From Candidatus Gastranaerophilales bacterium (lineage in GTDB: Bacteria > Cyanobacteriota > Vampirovibrionia > Gastranaerophilales > Gastranaerophilaceae), in assembly GCA_944322895.1 (NCBI GenBank), contig CALUQL010000011.1:1-39455 (forward strand): a DNA stretch of 39,455 nucleotides, in the 5' to 3' direction. Each line of letters begins with the position of its first letter. The first letter of the stretch is position 1. The notes under the pieces are model-generated. The model did no database searches, was not told the DNA's origin, and was given only the letters and a program-made list of their open reading frames with translations. Made by a program: the position numbers and the translations under genes. This document shows positions 16,691 to 28,392 of this stretch, piece by piece.

Positions 16691-18073
16691 TTATTTTATA
16701 AACTTATTTAAATCATCTATGTCCAATACTTCAATTCTATCTGGATTATGGACAAAAATAATACACGAAATTAAAGGTTTGAACATTTCAAAATCACTAT
16801 ATGAAAGTTTCTTGTTCAAATCTGCCATATTATCTGCTAAAAATTCAGTAATGAGAACTTTGTCCTTAAAAACCAATGAACTAAAGTAATCTAGCGCAGA
16901 TTTACTTGTAATCCCTTCGAAATATATCAAATCCGGAGACTGAAATTCAATAAACCTCATAGCTTTATCAATATTAAAGCCAATGTTTTCATTTAACTCA
17001 CACTGATTTACATTCTCTAGATTATATTTCGAAATTGATTCCAACGTCATTATATTTCGATTTGAACCGGATAGTGCAGACAATATAGAATAAATTATAT
17101 GTGTTTTACCGGCAAGAGAAGAACCACATACCAATATAACGCCCGGAATCTCCGTAGCTTTTTTTATAATCTCAATTTGGATATCAGTTAAACCTATTTC
17201 AGAAAGTAACTTTGGAGGTTTATATATCTTTAAAGAAATTCTTTCTCCATTAATTGTTGGGAATGCTGATATACTTGCAGTTAAAAGAATATCATCTACT
17301 TTAAAAACTAATTTACCCAATTGCGGAAGCTCACAAACACTTGCATCTAAAGACGACAATGTTTTTAATTTTGATATAAAAGGAACAACTAATACTGATG
17401 GGATCTGTCCAGTCTCAACAATTTCCGTTCCTTGTCTAAAATTAACCGTAAGCCCGTTTGGTATATGCTCAAAGAATAATTCATGAACTTTATTTAGGAT
17501 TGCTTGCTTTAATATTGCTCGAATTAATATTTGAATATGCTCATCTGAAAGAACATCATTATGTAGTTCCTCTTGCCAATCAAACTTATTTTCCGAACTT
17601 TCTATGTTAATTTCACCAACAGAACTATCTGTTTTATAATATTCTTCAATTTTCTTTAATACGGATGTTTCTGCTGAAATAACAGGTTCAATATCACAAC
17701 CTGTCTTTTCAACAATCTTGTCTATTGCAAACAAATCTAAAGGATCTGCCATAGCAACCGTTAAAACATTCTCTATTTTAAATAATGGGATAATTTTATA
17801 CTTTTGAGCATCATTAAAATTTATATAAGCCAAACATTTCTTATCCAAAGTATAATCTTTCAAATCAACATATGGAATATGAAGTTTACTTTCCAAAAAC
17901 TTTAGCAACTTTTCTTCTGAGATCAAATTAGACTTTATCAATATCTGCCCTATATTTACTTTTTGAGAATCAGCTAGCTCTTGCGCCCTTTCAATATCTT
18001 CATAACTTACAAGCCCATCACGCACCAAATCATATTTTAATTTTTCAAGAGTTTTATTAGTAACTAATTCCAT
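16691..18073 (-). CDS. Degenerate GspE/PilB-like ATPase with MshEN domain
   Basis: The 460-aa protein has a GspE-type N-terminal domain (about 20-145, with DGLVSYEDIERAQELADSQ and YKIIPLFKIENVLTVAMADP) and a secretion-ATPase core. Walker A is present but altered: GSSLAGKT (317-324) instead of GPTGSGKT. The Walker B/Asp-box stretch is IYFEGITS (383-390) where families have VGEIRD, and the His-box is replaced by ITEFLAD. The C-terminal Cys-rich zinc module of GspE/PilB is absent. It probably binds nucleotide poorly and may regulate rather than drive secretion. It lies three bases after a response regulator in a kinase operon. No pilus assembly genes adjoin it. Confidence 0.78.
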   Translation of the reverse strand: MELVTNKTLEKLKYDLVRDGLVSYEDIERAQELADSQKVNIGQILIKSNLISEEKLLKFLESKLHIPYVDLKDYTLDKKCLAYINFNDAQKYKIIPLFKIENVLTVAMADPLDLFAIDKIVEKTGCDIEPVISAETSVLKKIEEYYKTDSSVGEINIESSENKFDWQEELHNDVLSDEHIQILIRAILKQAILNKVHELFFEHIPNGLTVNFRQGTEIVETGQIPSVLVVPFISKLKTLSSLDASVCELPQLGKLVFKVDDILLTASISAFPTINGERISLKIYKPPKLLSEIGLTDIQIEIIKKATEIPGVILVCGSSLAGKTHIIYSILSALSGSNRNIMTLESISKYNLENVNQCELNENIGFNIDKAMRFIEFQSPDLIYFEGITSKSALDYFSSLVFKDKVLITEFLADNMADLNKKLSYSDFEMFKPLISCIIFVHNPDRIEVLDIDDLNKFIK

Positions 18074-24025: not shown

Positions 24026-24709
24026 ATGAAATATAAATCAAGGCTCAATCAACCTCATAATTTGTCTGGAGTGCTTATTTGCGTTGAAGGTATAGATGGT
24101 TCAGGCAAATCAACCCAGCTTGCAATACTTAGAGATTGGTTAAAATCAAGAAAACAGGATGTTATTTTTACGGAATGGAATTCATCAGACTTGATTTCCC
24201 AGACAACAAAGCTTGCAAAAAAGAAAAATCTTTTAAGTCCAAGAACATTCTCTCTATTGCATGCTGTAGACTTTGCAGATAGATTGGAACAAATCATCAT
24301 TCCGGCATTAAAAGCAGGTTTTATTGTTTTAGCAGACAGATACGTCTATACAGCCTTTGCAAGAGATGTTGCAAGAGGCGTAGATAGAGATTGGGTCAGA
24401 AAAGTTTATGGTTTTGCAGTAAAACCTGACTTGACCTTATATTTTAGAGTATCTGAAGATGTATCCTTAGAAAGAATCTGTTCTAATCGTTCTCCCAAAT
24501 TTTATGAAGCAGGTATGGACTTAAAAATAAGTAATGATCCGTATGAAAGCTATAAGATTTTTCAAAAAAGAGTCAATGACGAATACAAAAAAATGATAGA
24601 AGAATACGATTTAGTTGAAATTGATGCAAACGAAAGTATTCATAAAAAGCAAGTATTTTTTAGAGAAGAAGTTCAAAAAATATTAACAAAAAAGGGAATT
24701 ATTCTATAA
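24026..24709 (+). CDS. Thymidylate kinase-like protein (paralogue 1)
   Basis: Thymidylate kinases phosphorylate dTMP to dTDP. The 227-aa protein has Walker A EGIDGSGKSTQ (P-loop 22-30), the DRY motif (104-106) in ADRYVYTAFARD, and the ALKAGFIVLADRY strand typical of the family. The usual REPGGT motif after the P-loop domain is replaced by TEWNSSDL (49-56), so substrate handling may differ. A 13-residue N-terminal extension precedes the core. AGAGGAAAA precedes the ATG. Its TAA is directly followed by the ATG of a close paralogue, so the two are co-translated. It could act on another nucleoside monophosphate, or as half of a heterodimer. Confidence 0.82.
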   Translation: MKYKSRLNQPHNLSGVLICVEGIDGSGKSTQLAILRDWLKSRKQDVIFTEWNSSDLISQTTKLAKKKNLLSPRTFSLLHAVDFADRLEQIIIPALKAGFIVLADRYVYTAFARDVARGVDRDWVRKVYGFAVKPDLTLYFRVSEDVSLERICSNRSPKFYEAGMDLKISNDPYESYKIFQKRVNDEYKKMIEEYDLVEIDANESIHKKQVFFREEVQKILTKKGIIL

Positions 24710-25369
24710 ATGACACAATACAAATCAAAACATGGTTACGAAGGTTTATTAATAGTAATAGAAGGAACTGACGGCTCAGGTAAATCAACACAAATAGAGC
24801 GATTAAAGCGTTGGATTGAAGACCAATCATATGGTGTTATGGTAAGTGAGTGGAAGACATCTAAATTTATTGCTGATGCAATAAATGATGCAAAAGACAG
24901 AAATTTATTAAATGCAACAACATTTAGCTTGCTTTATGCAGCAGATTTTGCAGATAGACTTGAACAGGTAATAATTCCAGCACTAAAAGCAGGATTTGTA
25001 GTTATTTTAGACAGATATATTTATACAGCATACGCTCGTGATGTTGTAAGAGGGCATAATATAGAATGGTTAAAAAATCTTTATGATTATGCACCGGAAC
25101 CAGATATGGTGTTCTATTTAGATGTACCTGTTGAAATCCTATTAAAAAGAATTATTGGCACTACGGGTTTAGATTACTGGGAATCAGGTAGAGATATTGG
25201 TCTAAGCAGCGATTTTTATAAAAGTTTTCAAATTTATCAAGGTAAATGTCTTGATGAATACCAGAAAATGATAAAAGAATATGGGTTTATTTCTATTGAT
25301 GGAACTCTAAGTGAAAAAGAAATTCATAAAAAAATCATATCTAAAGTAAAAGATATTCTAGAAGTTTAA
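24710..25369 (+). CDS. Thymidylate kinase-like protein (paralogue 2)
   Basis: The 219-aa protein aligns along its whole length with the gene immediately upstream: P-loop EGTDGSGKSTQ (19-27), SEWKTSKFI in place of REPGGT, DRYIYTAYARDVVRG (101-115). Shared unusual blocks such as FADRLEQ-IIPALKAGF show a tandem duplication, by eye at roughly half identity. No canonical Tmk with REPGGT is present in the window, so which copy makes dTDP is unknown. The start is directly after the previous stop with no gap. No terminator is visible before the dciA promoter. Confidence 0.82.
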   Translation: MTQYKSKHGYEGLLIVIEGTDGSGKSTQIERLKRWIEDQSYGVMVSEWKTSKFIADAINDAKDRNLLNATTFSLLYAADFADRLEQVIIPALKAGFVVILDRYIYTAYARDVVRGHNIEWLKNLYDYAPEPDMVFYLDVPVEILLKRIIGTTGLDYWESGRDIGLSSDFYKSFQIYQGKCLDEYQKMIKEYGFISIDGTLSEKEIHKKIISKVKDILEV

Positions 25370-25420: not shown

Positions 25421-25759
25421 ATGAAAAGAATAAACAATTCAAATTTTGAATTATTGGAAGATATAATAAAAACAATTGATTTTAATTACAATCCTGATTC
25501 ACAAAATGTAGTTAATGAACTAAATGCTTTATGGAGGGAAGTTGTTGGTAATAAAATTTCAAAATATTCTAAAGTTTATGAAATTTCTTCCGACAATAAT
25601 TTAACAATTATTTGTGCAGACTCATACATCTCAAATGAACTACTCTTTAACAAAAATAAACTGATAGATTTTATGAATAAAAAAACAAAAAAATTGGGAA
25701 TTAAAATAGAAGATATAAGATTTGATTATAAAAAATGGAAAGAAAAAAGCAATGAATAA
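25421..25759 (+). CDS. DUF721/DciA-like helicase-loader protein
   Basis: The 112-aa protein has the DUF721 pattern: LWREVVGNKISKYSKV (about 38-53), then SDNNLTIICADSYISNELLF and NKLIDFMNKK, matching the KH-like domain of DciA, which helps load the replicative helicase DnaB. The length fits the short DciA forms. The promoter puts transcription at or next to the ATG and no ribosome binding site is seen. Its last eight bases overlap the pilin-chimera gene, so the two are co-expressed, which is functionally unexpected. Confidence 0.75.
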   Translation: MKRINNSNFELLEDIIKTIDFNYNPDSQNVVNELNALWREVVGNKISKYSKVYEISSDNNLTIICADSYISNELLFNKNKLIDFMNKKTKKLGIKIEDIRFDYKKWKEKSNE

Positions 25760-28091
25760 AAAATTAAAAGGGTTTTCTCTTGCTGAGTTATTGATTTCTC
25801 TATTAATCATCAGTATTGTATTATCAGCAGCAATACCAACTATAACAAGAAAAGCAGGAGCTGATAGAGAAGCTATCTGGCGTTGGACCAATGAAGGGAA
25901 TAATGCATACTTTGGTACAGGAAGTAACCAGAGTGCCATTTTAGGTTTATCCAGTATTCCAAAAGCAGAAGAAGGTATTGCAGATATAATGCAAGATGTC
26001 ACTGTTATTGATGATGCAGTTGATGATATCACTGATACGGCGAATACTGGTACAAAAAGAGCAAACATCGGAAACATAAACACAGGGGATTTACGATACA
26101 GTAATTTTGGTGATAAATTTATCATATTAAAGAAAACTATTCAAAATGATAACTCAAACTTTATGAATTCCCATATTTCATTTTTCACAATGAAGAATGA
26201 TGATACAGCAACAACAGCAGATATAAAATACGGGGGCCGTTTAACATTAGACCCCGGTAATATAGCACTTGGTATGGGAACATTACAAAATATCGATCAA
26301 AATAATAACGGAGAAAATACTGCAATAGGTCACTTCGCATTATTAAGAACAAAAGAAGGTTTTAGAAATACCGCAATCGGCAAAAAAACTTTATCATATA
26401 ATGAAAGCGGTTCATACAATACAGCGGTCGGATTTGGAGCTCTTTTTGAAATGGGCAGATTAGAAAGCATTGTTGATGACGCATTTTATGAAAATACAGC
26501 AATTGGTGCTTTATCTCAACAACAAAGAGCAACCGGTCGTTTTAATACGTCAATAGGCTCACAATCTTTGAAAAGAAATACTGATGGAGACAGCAATACA
26601 GCTATTGGAAGACTTGCACTTGGTAACCTTACAACTGGAAGCAATAATACAGTAATAGGTGATAAGGCCTGCAGATATGTAGAGTCAGGAAACAACAATA
26701 TCTGTATCGGAAACAATGTAAGAACAACAAATACTACAGTTGGTGCTTCAAGCGTAAGCACTGAAGAAAACTATGGTATATTCATTGGTACCGCAACAGA
26801 AAACGATGAAACTCCACTTATTAGCGGACATAGTACACTTGTATTGGGAGATGGAGGCTCTTACCAGCTTCCTACAGCACACAAAGAGTTCATTGCTAAC
26901 GCTAGAAAAGTTGAATTCAGACCTTATAACGGAGCAAAACCAACTTTCAGATTTAATTCCTACTACGGTGCTAATAACAATTATAACGGATATGATCCAA
27001 CCTCAGGTCAAGCAGTAATTGGTACTGCTGAATTTAATCTTAGAGATACAGGGGGCGGCAGCGATTATTCTTCTGTTTCATTAGTTTTCGGTGGTATTGG
27101 TACAAATGCAAACGACAAAGAAGTTCGAATTAATGCATACGACTTGCATCACCCAGCAACATCAGACAAATGGGCAGACATAACTTTCAACAATATATTA
27201 AGATTTGACTTCCCACCTGTAACACATGAAGATGGTACTACTGATTATGGCGCTTTCAGAATGAATACAACAACTCCGGCAACGGCAGATTATCCTACTG
27301 AAACAAAATATACTATGTTAATCAATGACCGATTAGAAATCGGTAATAGTGAAGAAGTACCATATCTTCAACTCACAGCTGGAGAAGGGTTAAAATTCCA
27401 TTTTGGTAATAATACAGAATCATTTATAAATATCACAAAAGATAATGCTTTTATCAACTTTGTAAGTTCGAGTTCAATACCAGGGAGTTTATGGTTTGAT
27501 TTGCAAGGTGGTTTACAACTAACAACACCAGGAAAAATCACATTAAAATCAACCGGTAGTGATAATGTTATCAAATTCGGTAAAATATATATTGATGATA
27601 ATGAAATATACATTAATGATTTAAGAACATTTTCAAGTACTGGCGGTATAAAAGCAGAAATAAAAGGTATAAAGGAAGAAATTGACAACTTAAAAGCAAC
27701 AATGTCCGATGAGAGAAAAAAGAATATTCTAAGTGATAGTAAAGCAGGCTTGAAAGAAATCAATGCTTTAGAAGTAAAGAACTATACATATAAAGATGAT
27801 AAAAATAATACACCTCATGTTGGTGTTATAGCTCAACAATTACAAAAAGTATTCCCAAATTCTGTAATTGAAGGCAGTGATGGTTTCTTAAGAATAAAAA
27901 CTGAAGAAATCTTCTATGCGATGGTTAATTCTATAAAGGAACTTTGTTCCAAATTACAAGATTTAACTGCCAAAATATCAGGTTTGGATAAACGTATTAC
28001 AGAGCTTGAGAACCAAAATAAATTGTTACTTGACCAAAATAAAGAATTTGAAAAACGTCTTGAAAAACTTGAGAAACAACAAAATAAATAA
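25752..28091 (+). CDS. Prepilin fused to NTAIG-repeat fibre and Peptidase S74 chaperone domain
   Basis: A 779-aa chimera. Residues 1-34 are a type IV prepilin N-terminus: MNKKLKG then FSLAELLISLLIIS, cleaved after Gly7, with the conserved Glu at mature position 5. Eight copies of an NTAIG repeat follow (189-320), spaced exactly 17 residues except one 8-residue insertion. Residues about 340-640 are beta-rich. SDERKK (652-657) begins a Peptidase S74 domain with Ser652 and Lys657 at the catalytic dyad spacing, followed by HVGVIAQQLQKVFP and a coiled coil (about 735-779). S74 domains trimerise phage tail spikes and then cleave themselves off. The ATG at 25752, inside dciA, is chosen because the prepilin leader begins there. 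A surface adhesin is likely. Confidence 0.85.
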   Translation: MNKKLKGFSLAELLISLLIISIVLSAAIPTITRKAGADREAIWRWTNEGNNAYFGTGSNQSAILGLSSIPKAEEGIADIMQDVTVIDDAVDDITDTANTGTKRANIGNINTGDLRYSNFGDKFIILKKTIQNDNSNFMNSHISFFTMKNDDTATTADIKYGGRLTLDPGNIALGMGTLQNIDQNNNGENTAIGHFALLRTKEGFRNTAIGKKTLSYNESGSYNTAVGFGALFEMGRLESIVDDAFYENTAIGALSQQQRATGRFNTSIGSQSLKRNTDGDSNTAIGRLALGNLTTGSNNTVIGDKACRYVESGNNNICIGNNVRTTNTTVGASSVSTEENYGIFIGTATENDETPLISGHSTLVLGDGGSYQLPTAHKEFIANARKVEFRPYNGAKPTFRFNSYYGANNNYNGYDPTSGQAVIGTAEFNLRDTGGGSDYSSVSLVFGGIGTNANDKEVRINAYDLHHPATSDKWADITFNNILRFDFPPVTHEDGTTDYGAFRMNTTTPATADYPTETKYTMLINDRLEIGNSEEVPYLQLTAGEGLKFHFGNNTESFINITKDNAFINFVSSSSIPGSLWFDLQGGLQLTTPGKITLKSTGSDNVIKFGKIYIDDNEIYINDLRTFSSTGGIKAEIKGIKEEIDNLKATMSDERKKNILSDSKAGLKEINALEVKNYTYKDDKNNTPHVGVIAQQLQKVFPNSVIEGSDGFLRIKTEEIFYAMVNSIKELCSKLQDLTAKISGLDKRITELENQNKLLLDQNKEFEKRLEKLEKQQNK
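26316..26711 (+). repeat. Eight 17-residue NTAIG-type protein repeats
   Basis: NTAIG-like pentads start at residues 189, 206, 223, 248, 265, 282, 299 and 316 of the pilin chimera. All steps are 17 residues (51 bases) except one of 25. Copies have diverged at DNA level, so this is an old protein repeat rather than a recent tandem DNA array. Confidence 0.88.
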
Positions 28092-28131: not shown

Positions 28132-28149
28132 TGGTATAATAACCATATG
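28132..28149 (+). promoter_or_regulatory. Extended -10 promoter of rqcP; predicted leaderless start
   Basis: TGGTATAAT ends at 28140, six bases before the rqcP ATG at 28147, so transcription should start on the ATG itself. The nine-base core and the six-base gap are identical to those at recF. The preceding terminator hairpin supports an independent promoter here. Confidence 0.6.
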
Positions 28150-28392
28150 AGATTAGATAAATTTTTAAAAGTATCAAGATTAATAAAACGAAGAACTATA
28201 GCAAACAAAGTTTCAGAACAAGGCCGTATATATGTTAACGGTATAATTGCAAAACCTGCTAAACAGCTTAAAGAAGGGGATATAATTACTATCGTGCAAG
28301 CTGATACGGAAATAAAAGTCAAAATAATAAAGATACCTTCAAACAATGTATCTATACAGGAAGCAAGTACTTTATATAAAGAAATAAAATAA
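28147..28392 (+). CDS. rqcP: RqcP-like S4-domain RNA-binding protein
   Basis: The 81-aa protein is almost entirely an S4 RNA-binding domain: MRLDKFLKVSRLIKRRTIAN and EQGRIYVNG are very close to Bacillus RqcP (YabO), which works with RqcH to add alanine tails to nascent chains on stalled 50S subunits. The frame stays open upstream into the pilin gene, but MRLDKFL is the standard start and the terminator lies between. There is no ribosome binding site; the mRNA is predicted to be leaderless. rqcH is not in this window. The stop codon overlaps a terminator hairpin shared with the convergent ABC transporter. Confidence 0.88.
   Translation: MRLDKFLKVSRLIKRRTIANKVSEQGRIYVNGIIAKPAKQLKEGDIITIVQADTEIKVKIIKIPSNNVSIQEASTLYKEIK

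Follow-up and report, generated by a model that had tools for sequence, protein, structure and literature searches.

In this study, we analysed a stretch of 39,455 nucleotides from a Candidatus Gastranaerophilales bacterium (the window) and observed an uninterrupted reading frame that leads from a type IV prepilin leader to a C-terminal Peptidase_S74 domain (Table 1). With some reservation, we favor the reading that the product is a modular type IV minor pilin, whose S74 domain folds and then frees a trimeric fibre that is presented by the pilus, most likely at its tip. The combination of prepilin and S74 domain is already known, and the window protein is an unusually well conserved example of it.

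Table 1. Coordinates in the window of the prepilin-S74 gene, its parts and the adjoining genes.
Feature	Coordinates	Strand	Basis
Prepilin-S74 modular pilin gene (P0001)	25752..28091	+	Single 779-aa ORF
Class III (prepilin) leader MNKKLKG / FSLAE and hydrophobic helix, residues 1-29	25752..25838	+	Pfam N_methyl, TIGR02532, alignment, model
Conserved post-helix segment, residues 36-65 (W.W...N.AYFG.G.NQSAI.G)	25857..25946	+	Orthologue identity
Nine NTAIG-type repeats, residues 170-333	26259..26750	+	Spacing, model, phrog_4636 match
Beta-rich, fast-diverging fibre part, residues 334-651	26751..27704	+	Orthologue identity, model
Peptidase_S74 / intramolecular chaperone domain, Pfam part, residues 652-705	27705..27866	+	Pfam, PDB profile, fold
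SDERKK, proposed cleavage just before Ser652, Lys657 included	27705..27722	+	Motif conserved in S74 ORFs of the order
Long C-terminal helix / coiled coil, residues 717-778	27900..28085	+	Models
dciA (DUF721)	25421..25759	+	Pfam DciA 3.5e-9; 8-base overlap with pilin gene start
S4-domain RNA-binding protein gene, next 3' of pilin gene	28147..28392	+	Pfam S4 7.5e-12; synteny

Domain composition of the prepilin-S74 protein

Prepilins are inserted in the membrane with their C-terminal part outside and are cleaved by PilD at the G/F junction, and the glutamate E5 is required for entry into the filament. The features of class III leaders, G(-1), a hydrophobic helix and E5, are all present in the prepilin-S74 protein. 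Its leader MNKKLKG/FSLAELL places G7 at position -1, F8 at +1 and E12 at +5, and these residues are invariant among 31 aligned orthologues. Pfam N_methyl (residues 3-28, E 3.8e-6) scored over its gathering cut-off and the NCBIfam prepilin domain TIGR02532 above its own, which bears out the leader proposed in the initial annotation of this DNA. In the predicted structure the N-terminal helix comprises residues 10-35. Residues 36-139 are poorly modelled; a pilin globular domain is not recognisable there, and only residues 36-65 form a conserved stretch.

Towards the C-terminus, the protein possesses two additions that are not specific to pilus biology, the NTAIG repeats and the S74 domain. Nine NxxxG units were found from residue 170 to 316, at intervals of 19, 17, 17, 25, 17, 17, 17 and 17 residues, and each repeat forms two short strands in the predicted model. 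Thus, the repeats described in the initial annotation are present, while its count of eight has to be corrected and its exact 17-residue spacing applies to six of the eight intervals only. The following part (residues 334-651) consists mostly of strands in the model, in agreement with the beta-rich middle that had been described. Searches against PHROGs related residues 157-307 to phage tail spikes (phrog_4636) and residues 605-756 to phage tail fibres. The NTAIG region matched neither PDB sequences nor, in Pfam, a YadA-type head, and a YadA-like beta-roll for this region is only a guess. The best phage record, Roseobacter phage CRP-7, matched only parts of the stretch 165-754, and no phage record covered most of the 779-aa query. 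Moreover, a prepilin leader was present in 0/79 viral S74 ORFs whose start is intact. From both observations it follows, as far as sequence can tell, that the passenger belongs in kind with phage fibres, the pilin anchor being a cellular addition.

S74 fibres trimerise via the S74 domain and a coiled coil and then cleave before the Ser. In the window protein, Pfam Peptidase_S74 was detected at residues 652-705 with E 3.3e-14 (53.4 bits, cut-off 22), and a PDB sequence profile had the MYRF ICA as top match (4.3e-14), followed by phage fibres. In the profile match, Ser652 and Lys657 (S-x4-K) align with the MYRF dyad S587/K592, as the dyad spacing noted at first had implied. The motif S-D-x-[RK]-x-K is intact in 118/118 distinct S74 ORFs read from the order. 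A model of the S74 part (pLDDT 87, alignment of 73 sequences) has the ICA fold with a C-terminal helix. Foldseek placed the MYRF ICA (7dc3) first at E 1e-5, with 3gw6, 3gud and 4uw8 as weaker matches; among the matches listed all are intramolecular chaperones, and the best ones are the self-cleaving chaperones of MYRF, endosialidase, phi29 and T5. A second comparison with 7dc3 gave Z 7.3 over 91 residues at 1.9 A. The full-length monomer AlphaFold model was poor (pLDDT 59) and, being of low confidence, its lack of any match against the PDB at E <= 0.001 is uninformative; it contains the helix from residue 717 to 778 that corresponds to the coiled coil suggested initially. For MYRF, S587 and K592 were shown to be indispensable and cutting requires the trimer (PMC8326128). 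Given the S74 fold and the strict conservation of the Ser-Lys dyad, the expected product, on sequence and model grounds, would be a trimeric fibre from which residues 652-779 are removed.

Conservation and genomic context

The neighbors of the gene in the window encode ribosomal proteins, two tandem thymidylate-kinase-like proteins, DciA, an S4-domain protein and an ABC exporter. No phage genes were found in the window, and instead of lying in a cluster of virion structural genes the prepilin-S74 gene is part of a genus-conserved housekeeping operon (tmk-tmk-dciA-X-S4), away from the pilus genes. The genome (2.15 Mb, 159 contigs) encodes one S74 protein, and a second S74 gene was not found in it. 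The two thymidylate-kinase-like genes (24026-24709 and 24710-25369, + strand) are clearly different, each sharing about 46% identity with the orthologues of the other, and are both conserved in the genus. Elsewhere in the window, a gene for a shortened MshEN and T2SSE ATPase (16691-18073, - strand, 460 aa, covering T2SSE positions 4-215 only) adjoins response regulator and histidine kinase genes.

Matches to the prepilin-S74 protein were present in 34/34 other genomes of the genus, in three of which the gene is split across two contigs, and in one further genome (G029) it has one internal stop. The named relatives, with identities of up to 90%, belong to Candidatus Gastranaerophilales and include Candidatus Avigastranaerophilus faecigallinarum, which places the window in a gut Gastranaerophilales genome (Vampirovibrionia/Melainabacteria). 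The gene order tyrA-like, tmk, tmk, dciA, prepilin-S74 and S4 gene is fixed in the genus, and in most orthologues the end of dciA, stop included, shares 1-17 nt with the beginning of the pilin gene. Compared with four close orthologues, dN/dS is 0.08-0.09 over the whole gene length, indicating purifying selection. The mean identity to distant orthologues is 78% for residues 1-35, 54% for residues 36-65 and 18% for the following 74 residues; it is 21% for residues 334-480, 14% for residues 481-651 and again 74% for residues 652-730. As read from this alignment, conserved ends with a divergent middle fit a fibre whose anchor and folding domain are constant and whose outer part diverges. A misassembly or frameshift joining two genes, which had been named initially as a possible refutation, is excluded, since the fusion recurs in relatives from many independent assemblies, the dciA overlap is kept and the low dN/dS extends over the full length.

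The same domain order was also found beyond the genus. Among 129 S74 ORFs in relatives, 107 also have a prepilin segment, and those without it run off the sequence edge, apart from L041, L050 and L099. In L041 and L050 a ten-G run divides the S74 ORF from a short ORF for the prepilin. The S74 ORF at L099:5926-6873 has no recognisable prepilin leader upstream and is preceded by an unrelated gene. In the S74-pilins of relatives (L032-L131), the leader position -1 is occupied by Ala in 40/96 and by Ser in 2/96 cases in place of Gly. In a phylum-wide draw, S74 was detected in 108/386 genomes, mostly of the family of the window organism, and 18/18 complete S74 ORFs read from this family have a prepilin leader. 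The S74 ORF of a photosynthetic cyanobacterium (L295) is without one.

S74-pilin sets in relatives and proposed function

In relatives, S74-pilins frequently occur as sets. Families f6 and f7 have three S74-pilins in tandem, one group of genera has three within one locus, and genomes of genus g23 mostly have three S74 matches. In L033 and L035 a prepilin-type gene that lacks S74 comes after the trio, an arrangement that resembles a minor-pilin operon. One-locus trios, the f6/f7 tandem sets among them, were seen at L032-L037, L097, L103-L105, L108, L109, L111 and L123. As to a shared triplication in the ancestry of the trios, the S74 tree has three groups in one family and three in a group of genera, with weak deep nodes.

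Several of the S74-pilin genes of relatives are associated with poly-G tracts. Runs of at least nine G/C lay within 300 nt of prepilin leaders, i.e., in 5% of the bases, in 9/15 cases (binomial p 1e-8, an optimistic value since the runs come from related genomes). At or near S74-pilin starts, 9-11 G runs were observed at L107:5959, L115:68, L124:5924, L129:5929, L090:6198, L081:6126, L088:5866 and L082:161. In four of these (L107, L115, L124 and L129) the run separates an ATG from the leader, which by sequence reading is in frame with the ATG in L115 and L129 and out of frame in L107 and L124; in L041/L088 and L050/L082 the G run splits the gene. Because the leader is in frame in some and out of frame in others, these genes have the look of phase-variable genes, and the tracts likely confer phase variation by slippage. 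No paper on poly-G phase variation of these S74-pilins was found. Similar poly-G/C runs are located just 5' of non-S74 prepilin genes (L081:2966, L091:2058), and the genomes G032, G007 and G018 combine very many runs of at least nine G with an enlarged S74-pilin set. The pilin gene of the window has no phase-variation tract (its G runs reach 5 at most), and a search of the whole genome found no nine-G run; thus, poly-G switching does not apply to the window's gene.

Judged by its gene content, the genome of the window is equipped with the machinery of a type IV pilus. Contig 18 carries, grouped together, the genes for one secretin, an MshEN/T2SSE extension ATPase and a platform protein, and contig 36 the gene for a prepilin peptidase (PilD) that has both A24 domains. 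Another platform protein and further ATPases are encoded elsewhere, with several ATPases of the PilB/PilT class in total, and the genome has six prepilins (N_methyl). Of the interpretation given in the initial annotation, what stands is a conserved and selected pilin-S74 fusion whose S74 part has the fold and dyad of self-cleaving trimeric chaperones, in a genome with a pilus machine.

A four-step model can be proposed. First, the N-terminal helix would insert the prepilin in the inner membrane with residues 36-779 outside, and PilD would cleave after Gly7, as the leader and the PilD gene suggest. Second, three chains would associate via the C-terminal coiled coil and the S74 domain, a step based on homology and fold, and this association would set the register of the repeats and the beta-rich fibre. 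Insertion as a pilin and trimerisation by S74, when combined, would result in a trimer of pilin helices bearing one fibre. Third, the conserved dyad implies that S74 would self-cleave before Ser652 after trimerisation, freeing residues 652-779, so that a stable trimeric fibre would remain on three pilin helices. Fourth, the type IV pilus would present the fibre, probably at the tip in analogy to the trimeric pilins CofB/TcpB, with the trimer capping the helix; the variable middle may then serve as adhesin for host, food or microbial surfaces. The tip location is the weak link of the whole reading. It is tempting to speculate further that the S74 device is reused for trimeric type IV pilus tips throughout the Gastranaerophilales, as a homotrimer in this genus and as paralogue sets of three in other families (perhaps as heterotrimers comparable to the GspI-J-K tip), some of them switched by poly-G tracts. 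This extension is tentative and we hold it with low confidence; if true, S74 self-cleavage would be a maturation checkpoint for pilus tips.

A different fate of the fibre has to be weighed against incorporation into the pilus. Potentially, the leader serves as insertion signal and anchor only, and the trimer stays attached to the inner membrane or leaves via the secretin in a manner similar to a pseudopilus or type II secretion. The position of the gene in a housekeeping operon away from the pilus genes and the unrecognised pilin globular domain past the helix are consistent with this, and the single secretin and platform might equally serve a secretion pseudopilus. Retention of the leader and E5 in all orthologues, the several PilB/PilT-class ATPases of the genome and the S74-pilins of other families that lie in operons with another prepilin argue against it, and we regard a fibre that never enters a pilus as rather unlikely.

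It is highly improbable that the S74 domain is a pilin-borne peptidase acting on other proteins. The family name and a guess made for S74 in modular pilins (Raynaud et al. 2021, PMC8179133) point in this direction, but characterised S74 domains cut their own chain only and serve as trimeric chaperones (PMC10769870, PMC8326128), and an S74 domain C-terminal to a beta-repeat fibre with a coiled coil is the usual fibre layout. If the minor pilin reading is right, S74 in modular pilins should be re-read as a self-processing chaperone instead of a peptidase. Finally, the resemblance of repeats and S74 to phage tail fibres might suggest a prophage remnant or an artefactual join of pilin and tail fibre genes, a notion with a negligible chance of being correct given the genus-wide fusion and gene order, the purifying selection, the window without phage genes and the missing leader in 79 complete viral S74 proteins, on which grounds a prophage origin was rejected.

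Comparison with known systems

The protein was initially suggested to be an undescribed system, which cannot be maintained. In a survey of modular pilins, the combination IPR012902-IPR030392 (prepilin and S74) is among the 15 commonest architectures, with the same order of an N-terminal prepilin motif and a C-terminal S74 domain; in the survey text the layout is only counted, and family, context, trimer or self-cleavage are not discussed for it (Raynaud et al. 2021, PMC8179133). Nothing was found in the literature on S74 pilins by that name, the layout appearing under modular pilins in the same survey. No description of an order-wide S74-pilin family, of its context or of a trimer reading for pilins was found in a literature coverage that was partial and is not proof of absence. 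If the minor pilin reading is right, a phage folding module would be reusable for a rigid, exchangeable, trimeric and adhesive pilus end, and a probable main surface adhesin would be named for the gut-dwelling Gastranaerophilales, of which few surface factors are known.

Cellular S74 fibres were also described before. The Bdellovibrio MAT (mosaic adhesive trimer) proteins are non-viral fibres that terminate in S74 with SDxxxK; they are trimeric surface adhesins with proven self-cleavage, Bd3182 being cut at the Ser (PMC10769870). Their N-terminus consists of a signal peptide followed by a beta domain of 130 aa that is conserved among them; the window protein differs in that it has a prepilin leader in place of a signal peptide. 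Phage fibres and spikes (endosialidase NF, phi29 gp12, T5 pb1) share the S74 fold and dyad, and many of them the NTAIG-type repeats, but their N-terminus docks to the virion and a prepilin leader is missing from all 79 complete viral relatives. MYRF, the nearest solved S74 structure, is likewise membrane-anchored with a self-cleaving trimeric ICA domain; it is, however, a eukaryotic transcription factor and has its membrane anchor on the opposite side of this domain. CofB/TcpB are homotrimeric tip minor pilins of type IVb pili, in which the pilin helix is followed by beta-rich C-terminal domains (PMC9565799). They answer the conflict between a trimer and helical pilus packing that had been raised initially, and they differ from the window protein in that they are without S74 and NTAIG repeats and retain their C-terminal domains.
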